This document shows positions 7,354 through 16,558 of a stretch of 23,646 bases of DNA, piece by piece. The position numbers and the translations under genes are program-made. How positions within the stretch are numbered: position 1 is the stretch's first letter; each line of letters opens with the position of its first letter. Below the pieces are notes generated by a model. That model was not told the DNA's origin and ran no database searches. It worked only from the letters and a program-made list of their open reading frames with translations. This DNA is from Actinomycetota bacterium (lineage in GTDB: Bacteria; Actinomycetota; Thermoleophilia; Gaiellales; Gaiellaceae): contig VAXA01000001.1 in NCBI GenBank assembly GCA_005883365.1, positions 1 to 23,646 on the forward strand, in the 5' to 3' direction.

Positions 7354-7439
7354 GTAGAACAGCCTCCCTTGAAGCGTGCGAAAACGGGCAAGAAATCGGC
7401 GTCAGAACTGCGAGCGGCCAAACGTAGGCGCAACCCGCC

Positions 7440-7469
7440 AGGGTACCGGAACAACCCCCCTCACCGCAA
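7440..7469 (-). promoter_or_regulatory. candidate promoter of rpoBC
   Basis: On the minus strand a -35-like TTGCGG (7464-7469) is followed by an 18-nt spacer and a -10-like TACCCT (7440-7445), which fits the TAnnnT core of vegetative promoters. This leaves an untranslated leader of about 80 nt before the rpoB TTG. It lies downstream of the rplL terminator hairpin, where a separate rpoB promoter would be expected. No experimental support; alternative matches in this GC-rich leader are possible. Confidence 0.45.
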
Positions 7470-7540
7470 GCCGAAGCAGCGGCGGTCGCCGGTATCGGCT
7501 GAAACTGTAGCTCCGGGCCGCTGATTCGGCAAGCGGAATG

Positions 7541-7597
7541 AAAAAGACCGGTGCCTGCCACCCCGGGGGCCTCGGTTGGCTCCGGGTGGCAGGCACC
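7541..7597 (-). terminator. intrinsic terminator/attenuator between rplL and rpoB
   Basis: A perfect 14-bp inverted repeat (GGTGCCTGCCACCC at 7550-7563 with its complement at 7584-7597) encloses a 20-nt loop. Read on the minus strand it follows the rplL stop by 16 nt and is followed by CGGTCTTTTT, a T-tract. This is a good Rho-independent terminator. Because rpoB and rpoC lie downstream on the same strand, it probably acts as a partial terminator, as in the known rplL-rpoB attenuator of other bacteria. Confidence 0.75.
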
Positions 7598-7613
7598 TTC
7601 GTCTGTTGAGCCG

Positions 7614-7991
7614 CTACTTCACCTCTACTGTTGCGCCTGCTTCCTCGAGCTGCGCCTTGATCTGGTCGGCCTCCTCCTGGGCGACGCCCTCCTTGACCGC
7701 CTTGGGGGCCGAGTCGACGAGGTCCTTCGCCTCCTTGAGGCCGAGGCCGGTGACCGCGCGGACGACCTTGATCACCTGGATCTTCTGGCCACCCGCCTCG
7801 GAGAGCACCACGTCGAAGGCCGTCTTCTCCTCCACCGCGACGTCGTCGCCCGCAGGCGCGCCGGGCGCCGCGACCGCCACCGGAGCAGCGGCAGTGATGC
7901 CCCACTCCTCCTCGATCTTGTTCTTCAGCTCGACCAGCTCGAGGACACTCATCTTGCCGAGCGACTCGAAGATCGAATCCACACCAGCCAT
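7614..7991 (-). CDS. rplL: 50S ribosomal protein L7/L12
   Basis: Stalk protein that recruits translation GTPases to the ribosome, 125 residues, the usual length. It has the N-terminal dimerisation helix ([15 protein letters not shown]), an Ala/Pro/Gly-rich hinge near residues 35-48, and the C-terminal domain with [18 protein letters not shown] and [15 protein letters not shown], the factor-binding surface. The ATG overlaps the rplJ stop by one base (TAATG), giving translational coupling to L10, its partner on the stalk. A terminator hairpin follows. Confidence 0.98.
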
Positions 7992-8683
7992 TACTCCTCC
8001 TCCGTGCTTTCGTCGGTAGTCGTCTCTTCAGTCGCCGGCTCTTCTTCCGCGGCGTCCGCTTCGGGGGCGGCTTCGGCCACCTCCTCCTCGACCGGGGCCT
8101 CCTCTGCCACTGGCTCAGGCTCGGCCGCGGACTCGGGCTCAGGCTCGGACTCGGGCTCCTCGCCGCCCAGCTGCTCGATGCGCGCATCGATGAGGCCGAC
8201 GAGGTTCTGCAAAGGCGCGTTGAGCAGGCCGGCGAGCGCGGTGACCGGCGCGACGATCGCGCCGAGCACCTGTCCGCGCAAGACGTCCTCCGGCGGCAGC
8301 TTCGCGAGGGTCTCGATCTCGGCCGCGGTGACGGCGCGTCCCTGCATGATGCCGCCACGAATCTCGAGCACGCGCGTCTCGCGCGCGGCGTCGGCGAGCG
8401 CCTTCGCCGCCGCAACCATGTCGCCGTCGGCTTCGAGGAACGCGATCGCACTCGGACCGTCGAGCAACGTGAGCAGCGCCTCGGTCCCTGCCGCCTCGGC
8501 CGCGCGGCGGGTAAGCGTGTTCTTGATGACGGTGAAGCGGGCGCCGCTCTCGAGCAGCCGCGTGCGGAGCTCGTCGATCTGCGGCATCGTGAGCCCGCGA
8601 TAGTCGGCGACGAGCAGCGTGTCAGCAGCCCTCAGCCGCTGGGTCAGCTCGTCGACAACCTGTTCTTTCTGTTCCTTCTTCAT
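7991..8683 (-). CDS. rplJ: 50S ribosomal protein L10 with long acidic tail
   Basis: L10 anchors the L7/L12 dimers on 23S rRNA and with them represses its own mRNA in many bacteria. The body (residues 1 to about 172) is normal: [23 protein letters not shown] and [13 protein letters not shown] are recognisable. After [12 protein letters not shown] comes a tail of about 57 residues made almost only of Glu, Ala, Pro, Asp, Ser and Thr. That makes the protein 230 residues against a usual 165-180. The start has an AGGTGAG directly before the ATG. A 64-nt leader that can fold separates it from rplA. Confidence 0.97.
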
Positions 8684-8747
8684 CTCACCTCGACTGGTCT
8701 TCCGCCCTCGCAGAAAGGACTGCCAGTGGTCTTCGGCGGGTCAGTTG
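8684..8747 (-). promoter_or_regulatory. candidate L10 (rplJ) leader, autoregulatory RNA
   Basis: The gap between rplA and rplJ can fold on the minus strand. An outer stem CCGCC/GGCGG (plus-strand 8735-8739 with 8702-8706) encloses an inner GCAG/CTGC hairpin with a TCCTTT loop. A purine-rich GAAGACCA sits in the internal loop and recurs 3' of the stem. The position, length and two-stem layout match known L10 leaders, where the L10-L12 complex binds to lower L10 translation. This was judged by eye only. Confidence 0.45.
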
Positions 8748-9494
8748 CTAAGCGGGAACTGTAGCGGCCCCCTGCGGCTGCTCGTCCAGCTCTTCGACGA
8801 CGCCGCGCGTTCGCGCCGGGTCGACATGGATTCCGGGGCCCATCGTGCTCGTGAGCGTGATCTGCCGGATGTAGCGACCCTTCGCCGCCGACGGCTTCGC
8901 ACGCAGGATCTCGTCGAGGACGGCGGCGTAGTTCTCGACGAGCGCGCGCTCGTCGAAGCTCTTCTTGCCGATCACCACGTGGACGTTCGCGCCGCGGTCG
9001 GTCCGGTATTCGAGCTTGCCGGCTTTCGCCTCCGAGACGGCCTTGCCGACGTCCATCGTCACCGTGCCCGTCTTCGGGTTCGGCATCAGGCCCCGGGGCC
9101 CGAGGACGCGGCCCAGCCGGCCGACGTTCCCCATCTGGTCCGGCGTCGCGATCGCGACGTCGAACTCCATGAAGCCCTCCTCGACCCGCTTCGCGAGGTC
9201 GGCCGAGCCGACGACGTCCGCCCCGGCCTGCTCCGCCTCGCGGGCCTTGTCGCCCTCGGCGAACACGGCGACGCGCACGTCCTTGCCGCTGCCGTGCGGC
9301 AGCATGAGCGTGCCGCGGAGCTGCTCGTCGGCGTGGCGGACGTTCAGCCCCAACCGAAAGTGCAGCTCGACGGTCTCGTCGAACTTCGTGGCGTCCATCG
9401 ACTTGAGCAGGCGCACAGCCTCGACCGGCGAGTAGACCTGCTCGCGATCGAAGATCGCGCGGGCGCCGCGATAGCGCTTTCCGTGCTGAGCCAT
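8748..9494 (-). CDS. rplA: 50S ribosomal protein L1
   Basis: L1-stalk protein of the large subunit, 248 residues, slightly above the usual 230-235 because of a short C-terminal extension ([17 protein letters not shown]). Typical motifs are [37 protein letters not shown] and GKKSF. The ATG overlaps the rplK stop by one base (TAATG), so L11 and L1 are translationally coupled, as is common. L1 usually represses this pair through its mRNA; I did not identify the site. Confidence 0.98.
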
Positions 9495-9919
9495 TACAGA
9501 TCCACCTCGACGCCCATGCTCCGCGCCGTGCCGGCGATGATCCGCGCCGCCTGGTCGATGTCGCGCGCGTTGAGGTCGGGCATCTTCGTCTCGGCGATCC
9601 GGTGCACCTGGTCACGCGAGAGGCGGCCGACCTTCATCCGGTTGGGCTCGCCGGAGCCCTTGTCCAGCCGCAGCGCCTCCTTGATCAGGACGGCGGCCGG
9701 CGGCGTCTTCGTGATGAACGTGAACGAACGGTCCTCGAAGACCGTGATCTCGACGGGGGTGATGCGGCCGTTCTGGTCGCTCGTCTGCGCGTTGAACGCC
9801 TTGCAGAACTCCATGATGTTGACGCCGTGCTGGCCGAGCGCCGGGCCGACCGGGGGGGCCGGGTTCGCCTGCCCGCCGGGGATCTGGAGCTTGATCAGGG
9901 TGAGAACTTTCTTGGCCAT
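9494..9919 (-). CDS. rplK: 50S ribosomal protein L11
   Basis: L11 binds the GTPase-associated region of 23S rRNA, the thiostrepton site. It has 141 residues, the usual length. The N-terminal domain begins [15 protein letters not shown] and the proline-rich [20 protein letters not shown] motif is intact. The C-terminal domain ends with [17 protein letters not shown]. The ATG lies 5 nt after the nusG stop, with GAGGAAG as ribosome site overlapping the end of nusG. This is the only complete copy in the window; the first 16 codons recur at 12769-12816, fused to another gene. Confidence 0.98.
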
Positions 9920-9924
9920 CTTCC

Positions 9925-10455
9925 TCAGTCCAGTTTCTTGACGTTGTCGAATCCAACCTCGACCGGCACCTGCCGCTCGAAGATGTTGACCATCACCTGC
10001 AGCTTCTGCGCGTCGGGATTGACGTCGGTGATCTCGCCGTCGAAGTCCGCGAGCGGGCCCGAGGTGATCTTGACCGACTCCCCGAGCTGGAACTCGACCT
10101 GCGCGCGCGTCTGCAGCGCGGTGGCCGAGCCCGTGTGGAGGATCCGGTCGACCTCGGGCTGCGAGAGCGGCACCGGCGTCGCGCCGGCACCGACGAAGCC
10201 CGTCACGCCCGGCGTGTTCTTGACCACGGTCCAGGCGTCGTCGTTGAGGTCCATGTTCACGAGCACGTAGCCCGGCAGCGTGCGCTTCTCGGCCTGCACC
10301 TTCTGGCCGTCCTTCGTCTCGATCACCTGCTCGGTCGGGACGACGACGCGCCGGAAGCGGGAGCGCTGGTTCATCGACTCGATCCGGTGCTCGAGGTTGG
10401 CTTTCACCTTGTTCTCGTGCCCGGAATAGGTGTTGATCACGTACCAGCGGAACAT
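9925..10455 (-). CDS. nusG: transcription factor NusG, copy 1 (complete)
   Basis: NusG rides on RNA polymerase, promotes processive elongation, and links it to Rho and to the ribosome. It has 176 residues: the NGN domain ([19 protein letters not shown], then [13 protein letters not shown] and TPGVTGFVG) and a C-terminal KOW domain from about residue 126 ([18 protein letters not shown]). The length is near the bacterial minimum, without the long acidic N-terminal extension of many actinobacterial NusG proteins. It lies 33 nt after secE and 5 nt before rplK, the normal order. The copy at 12822-13352 encodes the same protein. Confidence 0.97.
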
Positions 10456-10488
10456 CAGGGTCTCTTCTCGGCTCCCAATTCTCGGCGA

Positions 10489-10842
10489 CTAGCGCAGGAA
10501 CACATGCTTGACGACGTAGCTCCACAGCTCGTCGTTCGCGTACAGGTAGACGCCGGTGATGAGCGAGGCGATGATGACGACGGCCGTGCCGCTGATCACC
10601 TGCTGCTGGCTCGGCCACTCGACCTTCCTCAGCTCCGCCCAGGACTCCTGGAGGAAACGGATTCCGGGCGAGCCCGGCCGGACCTCGTCCCGGCGCTCGG
10701 GGCGCGGCTCGCGACCGCGGGACGGCTCGTCGCCGCCGTTCTCGACCGGCCGGACCGGCGGGCGTGCGGGAGGCCCACCGGCGAGAGCCGGCCGCTGCTG
10801 CGCGCGGCGCTGCCGGCGCTGCTGACGCGTCGAGCGGGCCAT
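10489..10842 (-). CDS. secE: preprotein translocase subunit SecE, copy 1
   Basis: Small membrane subunit of the SecYEG channel, 117 residues. The first 58 or so residues are a basic, Pro/Arg-rich cytoplasmic extension typical of actinobacteria. Then come the amphipathic helix ([20 protein letters not shown]) and one membrane segment at about 84-102 ([20 protein letters not shown]). The ATG at 10842 is intact, but rpmG and its ribosome site do not precede it. Junction J1 lies 3 nt upstream, where a truncated nusG begins. It differs from the other two copies by a synonymous Ala codon (10636) and encodes Ser58. Confidence 0.95.
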
Positions 10843-10844
10843 TA

Positions 10845-10846
10845 CT
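10845..10846. other. rearrangement junction J1 (secE start joined to nusG interior)
   Basis: Plus-strand sequence runs cgagcgggcc-attac from the secE start and then switches to tgatcttgacc inside nusG. Intact copies show attac followed by cgcgtc (rpmG) and, in nusG, cgagg before tgatc. The switch point is therefore exact, with no shared base at the break. A 10-bp match (cgagcgggcc) lies 5 bp to its left. Confidence 0.9.
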
Positions 10847-11236
10847 GATCTTGACCGACTCCCCGAGCTGGAACTCGACCTGCGCGCGCGTCTGCAGCGC
10901 GGTGGCCGAGCCCGTGTGGAGGATCCGGTCGACCTCGGGCTGCGAGAGCGGCACCGGCGTCGCGCCGGCACCGACGAAGCCCGTCACGCCCGGCGTGTTC
11001 TTGACCACGGTCCAGGCGTCGTCGTTGAGGTCCATGTTCACGAGCACGTAGCCCGGCAGCGTGCGCTTCTCGGCCTGCACCTTCTGGCCGTCCTTCGTCT
11101 CGATCACCTGCTCGGTCGGGACGACGACGCGCCGGAAGCGGGAGCGCTGGTTCATCGACTCGATCCGGTGCTCGAGGTTGGCTTTCACCTTGTTCTCGTG
11201 CCCGGAATAGGTGTTGATCACGTACCAGCGGAACAT
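10846..11236 (-). pseudogene. truncated nusG lacking the KOW domain (copy 2)
   Basis: The first 130 residues match NusG exactly, through GESVKI. At J1 the reading frame then passes out of frame into secE sequence ([11 protein letters not shown] and onward), so the KOW domain that contacts Rho and ribosomal protein S10 is lost. The frame stays open, by GC-rich chance, all the way into rplK. If real it would give an NGN-only NusG with a nonsense tail. More likely it is a product of rearrangement or misassembly. Confidence 0.85.
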
Positions 11237-11269
11237 CAGGGTCTCTTCTCGGCTCCCAATTCTCGGCGA

Positions 11270-11623
11270 CTAGCGCAGGAACACATGCTTGACGACGTAG
11301 CTCCACAGCTCGTCGTTCGCGTACAGGTAGACGCCGGTGATGAGCGAGGCGATGATGACGACGGCCGTGCCGCTGATCACCTGCTGCTGGCTCGGCCACT
11401 CGACCTTCCTCAGCTCGGCCCAGGACTCCTGGAGGAAACGGATTCCGGGCGCGCCGGGCCGGACCTCGTCCCGGCGCTCGGGGCGCGGCTCGCGACCGCG
11501 GGACGGCTCGTCGCCGCCGTTCTCGACCGGCCGGACCGGCGGGCGTGCGGGAGGCCCACCGGCGAGAGCCGGCCGCTGCTGCGCGCGGCGCTGCCGGCGC
11601 TGCTGACGCGTCGAGCGGGCCAT
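11270..11623 (-). CDS. secE: preprotein translocase subunit SecE, copy 2
   Basis: Same 117-residue SecE as copy 1 except Ala58 instead of Ser58 (RPGAPG against RPGSPG), caused by 11452; 11456 is a silent change in the adjacent Pro codon. The start at 11623 overlaps the rpmG stop by one base (TAATG), which decides it over a longer frame that begins upstream inside rpmG. The normal upstream neighbours rpmG and tRNA-Met are kept here. Downstream is the truncated nusG rather than a whole one. Confidence 0.95.
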   Translation of the reverse strand: MARSTRQQRRQRRAQQRPALAGGPPARPPVRPVENGGDEPSRGREPRPERRDEVRPGAPGIRFLQESWAELRKVEWPSQQQVISGTAVVIIASLITGVYLYANDELWSYVVKHVFLR

Positions 11624-11784
11624 TACCGCGTCTCCCGGTGCAGGGTATGGCTGCCGCACCAGCGGCAGTACTTGCGGAACTCGACGCGGTCGGGCGAGTT
11701 TCGCTTCGACTTCTGCGTCTGATAGTTCCGCCGCCTGCACTCGGTACAGGCGAGCGTGATTGCGACTCTGACTCCGGTTGCCAT
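11623..11784 (-). CDS. rpmG: 50S ribosomal protein L33, copy 1
   Basis: Small large-subunit protein of 53 residues with a zinc ribbon: CTEC near residues 13-16 and CRWC near 40-43 (the four-cysteine, zinc-binding form). [12 protein letters not shown] and [19 protein letters not shown] are typical. The ATG has CAGGA just upstream. The stop shares one base with secE. It lies 32 nt after tRNA-Met, the usual actinobacterial context. Confidence 0.95.
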
Positions 11785-11816
11785 TCCTGTATCTCGCTCT
11801 GAGGGACGCGCTCCAG

Positions 11817-11890
11817 TAGCGCCGGGTGGGCTCGAACCACCGACCTCTGCATTATGAGTGCAGCGCTCTGACCAGCTGAGCTACGGCGCC
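11817..11890 (-). tRNA. tRNA-Met (CAT), elongator type, copy 1
   Basis: A full cloverleaf can be drawn: acceptor GGCGCCG with CGGCGCT (first pair G-U), D arm GCTC/GAGC, anticodon stem CTGCA/TGCAG with loop CTCATAA, T arm GGTGG/CCACC with TTCGAGC. The anticodon is CAT. The paired 1-72 position argues against initiator tRNA, which has an unpaired C1-A72. No CCA is encoded. Its first 10 nt form the end of the oxidoreductase reading frame. A tRNA-Ile2 that reads AUA after lysidine modification also has a CAT gene anticodon and cannot be fully excluded, but the position before rpmG favours Met. Confidence 0.93.
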
Positions 11891-12816
11891 ACGCGCCGCC
11901 GCATAGTAGCGGAGAAGAAGCCGACCGCTCCGACCGCCACCGCGGCCAGTGCGGCACCCCTCGCGGCCCGCCGTACGAGCGACGGCTTCGGCCGGATCTC
12001 GTAGTAGAGGCGCTCGGGCCGGGGCCCTCTAGGACCGGCGGCGCCGTGCTCGCGGGCGAGCTTCAGCACCTGCGCGACGTGCAGCGCGCGCCGGCCGGTG
12101 CCGCCCTGCTCGATCTGCGTCTTGCAGGAGAAGCCGTCCGCCACCACGATCGTGTCCTCCTCGAGCTCGCGCACCTTCGGCAGGAGACCCAGCTCGCCGC
12201 ACCGCATCGAGACCTCGTGGTGCCCCGCCTCGAAGCCCCACGAACCCGCGAGCCCGCAGCAGCCGGCCTGCAGCGTCTCGACCTCGACGCCCATCTTCTC
12301 CAGGAGCTCGACCTCGGGGTCGATCCCGCCGGTCGCCTTGTGGTGACAGTGGCCCCAGACGAACGCCTTGCGCTCGAGCCGTGGCGGCTCGACGTCGAAC
12401 TTCTCGAAGAACTCCGCGAAGTGGTACGTGCTCTGCGCGAGCCGCTTCGCGTCGTCGTCGTGCGGGAGGAGCTTGCCGAGCTCGTCCTTGAACACTGCCG
12501 CGCAGCTCGGCTCGAGCGAGACGATCGGGATTCCCTCCCGGTACCACTCGCGCAGCTGGTCGAGGCTGCGGCGGAGGTAGCGCTCGGCGAGCTCGAGGAA
12601 GCCGTAGTCGTAGAGCGGCCGCCCGCAGCAGACGTGGCCCTCGGGCATGAGGACCTGCCAGCCCGCAGCTTCGAGCGCCTCGACGGCGGCCACCCCGACG
12701 TCCGTGTGCATGTGGTTGTTGAAGGTGTCGGGGAAGAGGACGACCTTCCGCCCGGCCGGGTTCATCGTCCCGCCGGGGATCTGGAGCTTGATCAGGGTGA
12801 GAACTTTCTTGGCCAT
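11881..12816 (-). pseudogene. chimeric frame: L11 N-terminus fused to oxidoreductase C-terminal Fe-S part
   Basis: The frame starts at the duplicated rplK ATG (12816), reads 16 L11 residues ([15 protein letters not shown] after Met), crosses junction J2 in frame, and continues as the C-terminal part of the FAD/Fe-S oxidoreductase. That part holds both Cys-rich CCG modules (HVCCGRPLYDYG and LQAGCCGLAGSWGFE) and the HGHCHHKA-like WGHCHHKATGG motif. The end is the same TAG inside tRNA-Met as in the long copy. The FAD domain and the ferredoxin-like cluster are absent, so it cannot work as a dehydrogenase alone. It preserves the roughly 160 residues (NPAGRKVVLFPDTF to VEVETL) missing from the 853-residue copy. 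Confidence 0.88.
12768..12769. other. rearrangement junction J2 (oxidoreductase interior joined to rplK)
   Basis: Plus-strand ggccgggttc-atcgt from the oxidoreductase switches to cccgccgggg of rplK. In intact rplK the same place reads ggccgggttc-gcctg-cccgccgggg (9857-9881). So a 10-bp identity sits 5 bp left of the switch, exactly the geometry of J1. Four of the five intervening bases differ. Confidence 0.88.
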
Positions 12817-12821
12817 CTTCC

Positions 12822-13352
12822 TCAGTCCAGTTTCTTGACGTTGTCGAATCCAACCTCGACCGGCACCTGCCGCTCGAAGATGTTGACCATCACCTGCAGC
12901 TTCTGCGCGTCGGGATTGACGTCGGTGATCTCGCCGTCGAAGTCCGCGAGCGGGCCCGAGGTGATCTTGACCGACTCCCCGAGCTGGAACTCGACCTGCG
13001 CGCGCGTCTGCAGCGCGGTGGCCGAGCCCGTGTGGAGGATCCGGTCGACCTCGGGCTGCGAGAGCGGCACCGGCGTCGCGCCGGCACCGACGAAGCCCGT
13101 CACGCCCGGCGTGTTCTTGACCACGGTCCAGGCGTCGTCGTTGAGGTCCATGTTCACGAGCACGTAGCCCGGCAGCGTGCGCTTCTCGGCCTGCACCTTC
13201 TGGCCGTCCTTCGTCTCGATCACCTGCTCGGTCGGGACGACGACGCGCCGGAAGCGGGAGCGCTGGTTCATCGACTCGATCCGGTGCTCGAGGTTGGCTT
13301 TCACCTTGTTCTCGTGCCCGGAATAGGTGTTGATCACGTACCAGCGGAACAT
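12822..13352 (-). CDS. nusG: transcription factor NusG, copy 3 (complete)
   Basis: 176 residues, same protein as copy 1, with full NGN and KOW domains and the same 33-nt spacing from secE. What follows differs. Instead of an intact rplK, only 16 codons of rplK follow before the frame changes into the oxidoreductase. Since nusG is normally single-copy, this copy is either an assembly duplicate or part of a recent amplification. Confidence 0.95.
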   Translation of the reverse strand: MFRWYVINTYSGHENKVKANLEHRIESMNQRSRFRRVVVPTEQVIETKDGQKVQAEKRTLPGYVLVNMDLNDDAWTVVKNTPGVTGFVGAGATPVPLSQPEVDRILHTGSATALQTRAQVEFQLGESVKITSGPLADFDGEITDVNPDAQKLQVMVNIFERQVPVEVGFDNVKKLD

Positions 13353-13385
13353 CAGGGTCTCTTCTCGGCTCCCAATTCTCGGCGA

Positions 13386-13739
13386 CTAGCGCAGGAACAC
13401 ATGCTTGACGACGTAGCTCCACAGCTCGTCGTTCGCGTACAGGTAGACGCCGGTGATGAGCGAGGCGATGATGACGACGGCCGTGCCGCTGATCACCTGC
13501 TGCTGGCTCGGCCACTCGACCTTCCTCAGCTCGGCCCAGGACTCCTGGAGGAAACGGATTCCGGGCGAGCCCGGCCGGACCTCGTCCCGGCGCTCGGGGC
13601 GCGGCTCGCGACCGCGGGACGGCTCGTCGCCGCCGTTCTCGACCGGCCGGACCGGCGGGCGTGCGGGAGGCCCACCGGCGAGAGCCGGCCGCTGCTGCGC
13701 GCGGCGCTGCCGGCGCTGCTGACGCGTCGAGCGGGCCAT
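13386..13739 (-). CDS. secE: preprotein translocase subunit SecE, copy 3
   Basis: 117 residues with Ser58, the same protein as copy 1; at the synonymous site 13533 it agrees with copy 2. It has the basic N-terminal extension and one C-terminal membrane helix. The start shares a base with the rpmG stop, as in copy 2. The full native order tRNA-Met, rpmG, secE, nusG is kept here. Confidence 0.95.
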   Translation of the reverse strand: MARSTRQQRRQRRAQQRPALAGGPPARPPVRPVENGGDEPSRGREPRPERRDEVRPGSPGIRFLQESWAELRKVEWPSQQQVISGTAVVIIASLITGVYLYANDELWSYVVKHVFLR

Positions 13740-13900
13740 TACCGCGTCTCCCGGTGCAGGGTATGGCTGCCGCACCAGCGGCAGTACTTGCGGAACTCGA
13801 CGCGGTCGGGCGAGTTTCGCTTCGACTTCTGCGTCTGATAGTTCCGCCGCCTGCACTCGGTACAGGCGAGCGTGATTGCGACTCTGACTCCGGTTGCCAT
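13739..13900 (-). CDS. rpmG: 50S ribosomal protein L33, copy 2
   Basis: Second copy of the 53-residue, four-cysteine L33; no difference from the first copy was seen. Same ribosome site, same one-base overlap with secE, same 32-nt gap after tRNA-Met. Confidence 0.95.
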
Positions 13901-13932
13901 TCCTGTATCTCGCTCTGAGGGACGCGCTCCAG

Positions 13933-14006
13933 TAGCGCCGGGTGGGCTCGAACCACCGACCTCTGCATTATGAGTGCAGCGCTCTGACCAGCTGAGCTAC
14001 GGCGCC
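13933..14006 (-). tRNA. tRNA-Met (CAT), elongator type, copy 2
   Basis: No difference seen from the copy at 11817-11890: CAT anticodon in CTCATAA, 7-bp acceptor with a terminal G-U pair, no encoded CCA. Its U8-A9-G10 is the in-frame stop codon of the oxidoreductase gene upstream. Confidence 0.93.
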
Positions 14007-16558
14007 ACGCGCCGCCGCATAGTAGCGGAGAAGAAGCCGACCGCTCCGACCGCCACCGCGGCCAGTGCGGCACCCCTCGCGGCCCGCCGTACGAGCGACG
14101 GCTTCGGCCGGATCTCGTAGTAGAGGCGCTCGGGCCGGGGCCCTCTAGGACCGGCGGCGCCGTGCTCGCGGGCGAGCTTCAGCACCTGCGCGACGTGCAG
14201 CGCGCGCCGGCCGGTGCCGCCCTGCTCGATCTGCGTCTTGCAGGAGAAGCCGTCCGCCACCACGATCGTGTCCTCCTCGAGCTCGCGCACCTTCGGCAGG
14301 AGACCCAGCTCGCCGCACCGCATCGAGACCTCGTGGTGCCCCGCCTCGAAGCCCCACGAACCCGCGAGCCCGCAGCAGCCGGCCTGCAGCGTCAGCGGCG
14401 CGAACTTCGGCACCGCGCGCTCCTGCGTCATCCCCGCGGCGAGCTTGAATGCCTGCGCGAACGGCGGCGTGTGCGTGACGAAGTTGACGGGCCCGGGCGC
14501 CCGCGACGCGAGCCGGGCGACCTGGTCGATCAGCCCGAACGCGTACGCGTGACGCGGGCGAAGCTTGTGCTTCCAGCGCTGATGGAGGAACTCCGCCTTG
14601 TAGGTCGGCATGTCGACATTGACGGGGCAGTCGTGCGTGCAGCCCTTGCATGCAAGGCAGAGGTCGAGCGCCTCCATCACCTCGTCCGACTGCCAGCCGT
14701 CGGTGATGACCTCGCCTTCGAGCATCTCGAACAGGAGGCGCGTGCGCCCGCGCGTCGAGTGCATCTCATCCCGCGTCGCCATGAAGGACGGGCACATGAC
14801 GTCGACGCCGTCGGGCGTCCGGCACTTGCCGACGCCGACGCAGCGGACAGTCGCGTGCGCGAAATCGCCGTGGTCCTCGGGATACGCGAACTTGACCTTC
14901 GGCCGCCAGGGCTCGTAGTCGGCGCCGAGGCGGAGGTTCTCGTCGACGCGGTACGGCCGGACGACCTTGCCCGGGTTCATCTTCCAGTCGGGATCCCAGA
15001 TCGACTTGAACTCCTCGAAGGCGCGCACGAGGTCGTCGCCGAACATCTTGGGGAGAAGCTCTGCACGCGACTGGCCGTCGCCGTGCTCGCCGGACAGTGA
15101 GCCGCCGAGCTCGAGCACGAGGTCGCTTGCGTCCTCGAGCCAGCGGCGGAACTTGGCGATCCCCGGCTTCGTGACGAGGTCGAAGTTCCAGCGAGCGTGG
15201 ACGCAGCCCTGACCGTAGTGGCCGTAGAGCGAGCTCTCGTACCCGTACTCGTCGGCGAGCTTGGAGAGGCGGCGGAGGTACTCGCCCAGCCGCTCGGGCG
15301 GGACGGCCGAGTCCTCCCAGCCCTCGTGCGTGTCCTCCTTGCCGGGGATGAACGCGGTCGCGCCGAGCCCCGCCTCGCGCACCTCCCAGATGTGCTGCTC
15401 GCCCGCGGGGTCGTCGTACAGCTTCATGCCCGACGGCGGCCGGCCGTCCTTCTCGAGGTCGCGCATCAATGCCCGCGCCTTCGCGTCGGACTCCTCCTTC
15501 GTCTCGCCGCCGAACTCGACCAGCAGCCAGCCGCGGCCGTCGGGGAGCATCGAGCGCTCGTGCTGGTGGATGCCGAGCAGCGTCATGTCCTCGATCAGCG
15601 TGTCGTCCATCCCCTCGATCGAGATCGGCCGGTGCTCGCGCGCGAGCATCACGTGGTCGGCCGTGCGGAACTTGTCGGGGTAGCCGGCGACGAGCAACGA
15701 GACGCACGGCGGCTTTGGGATCAGCTCGAGCGTCGCCTCGAGCACCGTCACGCAGGTCGACTCCGTGCCGACGAGCGCGCGACCCACCTCGAAGCCCTTC
15801 TCGGGGAGGAGCTCGTCGAGGTTGTAGCCGGAGACCCGCCGTGGGATCTGCGGATAGCGCGCGCGGATCTCGTTGGCGTGCGTAGCTGCGAGCTCGCGGA
15901 GCCGCTCGGCGACCGCGTCGGGCACGCCTGCGCCGCCGCGGCCGATACGCAGGCGCTCGCCCCGGTACGTCAGCACCTCGAGCTCGACGAGGTTGTCCGC
16001 GACGCGCGGCCCGGGCCCGTGGAACTCCGACTGGACCGAGTGCCGACCACACGAGTTGTTGCCGAGCATGCCGCCGAGCGTGCAGTAGGCATGCGTGGAC
16101 GGATCGGGCCCGAAGGTCAGGCCGTACTTCTCGCTCGCTGTCTCGCGCAGGTGGTCGAGGACGCAACCCGGCTGCACGCGGGCGAGGCGGCGATCGGGGT
16201 CGATCTCGAGGATGTGATGGAGGTACTTCGAGAAATCGACCAGCACCGCCGTGTTGCAGCCCTGGCCGGCGAGGCTCGTGCCGCCGCCGCGCAGGACGAT
16301 CGGCGCGCCGTACTCGCGGCAGACCCGGTGGATCTCGACGAGCTCGTCCACGTGGCGCGGGACGACGACGCCGATCGGCGGCATCCGGTAGTTCGAGGCG
16401 TCGGTCGCGTAGAGCGCGCGGCTCGCGGTGTCGAAGCGGACCTCGCCCTCGATCGCCGCGCGGAGTTCGGCGGCGATGGTGCGCCGGTCGATCTTCTCGA
16501 CGCCGGCGGTGCCGCCCTGAACGCGCGTCTCGGTTCGTTTCGGGATCGTGGCGCTCAC
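13997..16558 (-). CDS. FAD/Fe-S D-2-hydroxyacid dehydrogenase (YdiJ/GlcD-GlcF fusion type) with internal deletion
   Basis: Flavoprotein fused to an Fe-S module, expected to oxidise a D-2-hydroxyacid such as D-2-hydroxyglutarate or D-lactate and pass electrons to the respiratory chain. The FAD domain shows RGGGTSLAGQGCN (about 90-102) and LGGMLGNNSCG (161-171); the cap domain has SLSGEHGDGQSR. Cysteines near 579 (VGKCR and MCPSF) and the CLACKGCTHDCP cluster near 636 bind Fe-S centres. At about residue 721 the sequence jumps from VPKFAPLTL to QAGCCGLAGSWGF, skipping the first CCG module kept in the chimeric copy. It has 853 residues; family members are near 1000. The GTG start overlaps the preceding stop by 4 nt (GTGA). 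An unusual C-terminal tail has a hydrophobic stretch (GAALAAVAVGAVGFFSA), perhaps a membrane anchor. The exact substrate is not known. Confidence 0.88.
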   Translation of the reverse strand: MSATIPKRTETRVQGGTAGVEKIDRRTIAAELRAAIEGEVRFDTASRALYATDASNYRMPPIGVVVPRHVDELVEIHRVCREYGAPIVLRGGGTSLAGQGCNTAVLVDFSKYLHHILEIDPDRRLARVQPGCVLDHLRETASEKYGLTFGPDPSTHAYCTLGGMLGNNSCGRHSVQSEFHGPGPRVADNLVELEVLTYRGERLRIGRGGAGVPDAVAERLRELAATHANEIRARYPQIPRRVSGYNLDELLPEKGFEVGRALVGTESTCVTVLEATLELIPKPPCVSLLVAGYPDKFRTADHVMLAREHRPISIEGMDDTLIEDMTLLGIHQHERSMLPDGRGWLLVEFGGETKEESDAKARALMRDLEKDGRPPSGMKLYDDPAGEQHIWEVREAGLGATAFIPGKEDTHEGWEDSAVPPERLGEYLRRLSKLADEYGYESSLYGHYGQGCVHARWNFDLVTKPGIAKFRRWLEDASDLVLELGGSLSGEHGDGQSRAELLPKMFGDDLVRAFEEFKSIWDPDWKMNPGKVVRPYRVDENLRLGADYEPWRPKVKFAYPEDHGDFAHATVRCVGVGKCRTPDGVDVMCPSFMATRDEMHSTRGRTRLLFEMLEGEVITDGWQSDEVMEALDLCLACKGCTHDCPVNVDMPTYKAEFLHQRWKHKLRPRHAYAFGLIDQVARLASRAPGPVNFVTHTPPFAQAFKLAAGMTQERAVPKFAPLTLQAGCCGLAGSWGFEAGHHEVSMRCGELGLLPKVRELEEDTIVVADGFSCKTQIEQGGTGRRALHVAQVLKLAREHGAAGPRGPRPERLYYEIRPKPSLVRRAARGAALAAVAVGAVGFFSATMRRRVAP
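14393..14394. other. rearrangement junction J3 (in-frame deletion in the oxidoreductase)
   Basis: Plus-strand ggcctgcagcgtc is shared with block 2 (to 12277) and then diverges: agcggcgcg here, tcgacctcg there. The join keeps the reading frame (APLTL then QAGCC) and removes about 500 bp. The parent sequence on the right of this junction is not in the window, so the microhomology cannot be checked here. Confidence 0.85.

Follow-up and report, generated by a model that had tools for sequence, protein, structure and literature searches.

Nested copies of a nusG-secE-rpmG region in a draft Gaiellaceae genome: a probable assembly artefact

The apparent duplication of tRNA-Met, rpmG, secE and nusG at positions 9872-14393 of the analysed window, a stretch of 23,646 nucleotides that corresponds to the entire contig C23 of a draft genome of the family Gaiellaceae, is in all likelihood an assembly artefact of a single-copy region. 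Judged from sequence, pieces of the region appear to have been joined end to end while their true overlaps stayed unmerged. The proteins of the region belong to ordinary families, and the region is no biological feature; in the organism, the locus most likely exists in single copy with the order rplK - nusG - secE - rpmG - tRNA-Met - FAD/Fe-S oxidase. The draft comprises 310 contigs and 2,148,135 bases, is 78% complete, and is probably metagenomic, since the named records closest to it come from metagenome-assembled Thermoleophilia or Actinomycetota.

The preliminary description of this DNA left the choice between an artefact and a real nested amplification. Similar repeats in other contigs, the form of the seams, the single-copy order in relatives and a stretch missing from the oxidase gene favor the artefact; real amplification is not supported.

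Block structure and variant sites

Self-comparison resolves the region into five kinds of block, arranged as a-b / b-c-d / a-b-c / e. Positions 10065-10845 recur as 10846-11626 (offset +781), 10846-12277 as 12962-14393 (+2116), and 9872-10845 as 12769-13742 (+2897), with breakpoints at 10845/10846, 12768/12769 and 14393/14394. These offsets and breakpoints had been reported previously and hold exactly to the base. Repeats of 0.8-1.4 kb at approximately 99% identity are not due to chance, and the window contains no N. The edges of the repeat unit vary from copy to copy, giving three different block sets, where real tandem amplification would be expected to keep constant edges.

All genes of the region lie on the minus strand. 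The only whole copy of rplK (L11; 9494-9919, Pfam Ribosomal_L11_N and Ribosomal_L11) is the native neighbor of nusG, in the same order as in relatives. It runs into the first copy of block a (9872-10064), which holds the rplK start and the nusG end, and this is followed by the first copy of block b (10065-10845), containing the main part of nusG together with secE and forming the end of the first piece. The second copy of b (10846-11626) carries secE and a nusG without its C-terminal end, and continues into the first copy of block c (11627-12277), to which gene and tRNA calls assign rpmG, tRNA-Met and the 3' end of the oxidase gene. The sole copy of block d (12278-12768) covers the middle of the FAD/Fe-S oxidase gene, as indicated by offset comparison and by relatives. 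A second block a (12769-12961), a third block b with nusG and secE (12962-13742) and a second block c with the same genes as the first (13743-14393) lead to block e (14394-16558, minus strand), which reading frames, relatives and Pfam identify as the first two thirds of the oxidase gene. The region therefore contains two tRNA-Met, two rpmG, three secE, and two whole and one truncated nusG, in agreement with the earlier count; the Pfam check of secE and rpmG covered one copy each. The truncated nusG retains approximately 130 N-terminal residues; its match spans residues 1-135, with the seam included.

Edges aside, the copies vary at three sites only, all located in block b and within 40 bp of each other. 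The first site (10636/11417/13533) reads C/G/G in copies one, two and three, the second (10671/11452/13568) reads A/C/A, and the third (10675/11456/13572) reads C/G/C, so that the three copies of b represent three distinct haplotypes (C-A-C, G-C-G and G-A-C, respectively). Near-identical copies with sparse variants are what false duplication from overlapping assembly pieces would produce.

The simplest account of these features is the following sequence of events. Strain variants in nusG-secE probably led the assembler to issue the region as four pieces, the first ending in a-b, the second spanning b-c-d, the third spanning a-b-c, and the fourth beginning with e. A later joining step, either scaffolding or gap closing, would have set the pieces in a row, presumably end to end, leaving true overlaps of 781 bp (pieces one and two) and 1432 bp (pieces two and three) unmerged and gluing the piece ends through chance matches of approximately 10 nt. 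The outcome would be the observed block order, with about 24 nt between d and e dropped. The earlier suggestion of an assembler walking a branched graph is upheld as to an artefactual origin, while in detail the region looks more like four pieces laid end to end with chance glue of about 10 nt.

Gene order in relatives and the missing part of the oxidase gene

Among 40 relatives searched with nusG, one match was obtained in 32 and none in six, and the other two each had a pair of partial matches on separate contigs; two whole nusG matches occurred in 0/40. A single-copy order of oxidase - tRNA-Met - rpmG - secE - nusG - rplK is present in G003, G011 and G014, although in G003 the contig stops short of the first part of the oxidase, and the blocks of the window tile this one collinear order as a-b-c-d-e. 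The comparison with related genomes that had been proposed as a check on the duplication thus yields a single-copy locus in these three close relatives. A fourth genome, G012, follows the same order as far as nusG, where its contig ends with most of nusG beyond. Within the 20 relative stretches compared, the oxidase adjoins rpmG only in these four genomes and lies approximately 2.5 kb away in G002 and G007; the remaining stretches show rpmG-secE-nusG-rplK or part thereof, with no oxidase in view. Duplication in close relatives would support real tandem amplification without being required for it, and neither two whole nusG genes (0/40 relatives) nor repeats (0/20 stretches) were seen.

Several irregular records were also noted. 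In G012 nusG is split across two contig ends (L098 and L099, on that genome's own contigs C55 and C68), indicating that the locus breaks in this relative's assembly too. Sequences 92% and 82% identical to the query nusG appear under titles of Acidobacteriota (L110, REEB338) and Burkholderiales (L155, HEB_FP_1_bin.11), and these bins are likely mislabelled or contaminated. In bin palsa_612, nusG occurs on two different contigs (L106 and L144), with 93% and 78% identity to the query, suggesting that the bin is mixed.

The preliminary description treated d-e as the one native adjacency missing from the window, but in relatives these two blocks do not adjoin each other: in all six checked, 10-11 codons separate the parts matching e and d, and all five proteins inspected (P0001, P0002, P0003, P0051 and P0060) carry such codons as well. 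Three of these codons (TLQ) are matched by the end of block c, and about eight are found at neither edge in the window. Such an absence would be expected if a gap had lain between two pieces of the assembly.

The contig contains no whole oxidase gene. It encodes just an 853-aa fusion, in which e is read on into c without the d region, plus a d-c piece behind the rplK start. When 9872-14393 was searched as DNA against the draft, six short matches were obtained in addition to the region, none longer than 80 bp. In the database, the fusion is matched best by oxidases of 1011-1012 aa, with 91-92% identity; lengths range from 712 to 1033 aa in the best 120 of 7,996 matches, and none of the five proteins examined is fused in this way. 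Apparent gene duplications, truncations and fusions in this draft, such as the extra copies of secE, nusG, rpmG and tRNA-Met and the 853-aa oxidase without its middle, should not be taken as biology.

Seams, recurrence in the draft and rival explanations

Two of the three seams in the window share one form. At J1 (10831-10845) and at J2 (12754-12768), 10 identical nt are followed by 5 nt of the left piece, after which the right piece begins at 10846 and 12769, respectively. The identical nucleotides are common to the left piece and to the native flank of the right piece, and the right piece resumes in register. The third seam, J3 (14384-14393), falls in the TLQ codons, where a match of 9-10 nt joins the end of c to the probable native flank of e and creates the in-frame e-c fusion; this flank is absent from the window and was deduced from relatives, three of the six shown having the exact 9-nt string. 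When pairs of places in the window were drawn at random, skipping draws less than 30 nt apart, the 20 nt upstream matched in register over a run of 9 or more in 87 of 300,000 draws.

Similar faults recur in unrelated genes of the same draft. A census of 79 other contigs (553,299 bases), 11 of them wholly N and 68 readable, used minimum values of 100 bp and 95% identity and revealed self-repeats in four readable contigs (C1, C14, C55 and C138). Three control sets, screened with the same minimum length and an identity threshold of 90%, gave 0/20 for contig stretches of G003, G006 and G008 (173,831 bases; two stretches wholly N), 0/20 for nusG-region stretches of relatives (226,213 bases), and 1/80 for nusG loci from named genomes (722,035 bases), the exception being a 125-bp tandem in L131. 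Recurrence in unrelated loci of one assembly, set against these controls, is a mark of false duplication. Runs of N measuring 7-251 nt are present in 7/68 readable contigs; they may be scaffold gaps or masked stretches and, having two possible origins, are no proof of a scaffolding step.

The closest parallel to the window is in C1 (L041), where positions 7432-11244, across what we take to be genes for a fumarase and an FNR-like flavoprotein, read as a nested a-b / b-c / a-b-c-e with offsets of 893, 1460 and 2353. An identical topology for C1 and the window was considered and rejected, as C1 lacks a block d and its seams number two; the 440-aa frame that spans its last joint, c-e, is matched over residues 1 to 432-438 in close relatives, which marks this joint as native. 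The other repeats are simple tandem copies: 415 bp in C55 (L201, 3665-4494), at the junction of presumed pyruvate dehydrogenase E1 alpha and beta genes; 534 bp in C138 (L213, 2485-3552), within a gene that we read as a 4-hydroxyphenylpyruvate dioxygenase; and 204 bp in C14 (L054, 3145-3554), in frame within a single gene, presumably for an HD-type domain protein. A 128-bp tandem copy with a variant site in C134 (L035, 101-343) lies outside the census and entered through a similarity match. Across the eight seams with both sides known, a 15-nt form, composed of 10-11 identical nt and 4-5 nt of the left piece, appears at five: J1, J2 and the seam of C14 (10 + 5 each), and the second seam of C1 and the seam of C55 (11 + 4 each). 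It is absent from the first seam of C1 and from C134 and C138, so one joining rule cannot explain all eight. The 15-nt form may offer an easy way to screen other drafts for glued contigs.

Breakpoint matches of approximately 10 nt could also arise from microhomology-driven rearrangement, and the leading rival to an artefact, which we consider very improbable, is a real nested tandem amplification in which the template was switched at short homologies. A replication fork would copy a-b, return to b, copy b-c-d, return to a, copy a-b-c, and proceed forward to e. Such a route agrees with the 10-nt matches beside J1 and J2, with the open fused frames left at J2 and J3, and with the retention of every native adjacency except d-e. 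It demands three rearrangements, however, two of which would have to share an odd tail: past the match, the old template continues for 5 nt before an in-register switch, as also seen in unrelated contigs, and simple microhomology joining is not known to leave such a tail. Because the b haplotype differs in every copy, three haplotypes would be needed in one cell line. The lack of a whole oxidase gene in the contig and of any other draft match above 80 bp likewise weighs against amplification, as do the similar repeats in 4/68 other readable contigs.

A still slimmer chance attaches to an organism with a real and unusually high rate of short nested tandem duplication across housekeeping loci, either fixed in its population or still polymorphic there; if true, this would entail extra doses of secE, nusG and rpmG and a remodelled oxidase. 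Least probable of all are chimeric DNA molecules formed before sequencing, for example by amplification, which would place the seams in reads but not in cells and would account for seams in several contigs of one sample, but neither ligation nor strand switching would be expected to produce a repeated 15-nt seam form and, while amplification chimeras are often inverted, the window has no inverted repeat of at least 40 bp.

Comparison with known false and real duplications

The region resembles bacterial tandem gene amplification in presenting direct repeats in tandem. Unlike such amplification, its unit edges vary, its b haplotypes all differ, and the faults recur in unrelated contigs. Assembly of a single-copy locus from overlapping pieces has counterparts in the literature. 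False segmental duplications, as described in PMC2864568, include duplicated overlapping contigs, in which two variants of one region are built separately, have overlapping ends, and are placed side by side, mimicking a recent duplication. Those cases come from diploid vertebrate genomes and involve separate contigs, whereas the window belongs to an apparently metagenomic draft and shows a series of consecutive joints, all within one contig that contains no N. The same paper states that duplications inside one contig are rarely errors, which counts against an artefact. In metagenome drafts, according to PMC7111523 on local assembly errors, truly overlapping flanks left unmerged at scaffolding give rise to duplicate sequence. 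The joints described there hold N, in contrast to the window, whose piece ends are fused at matches of approximately 10 nt.
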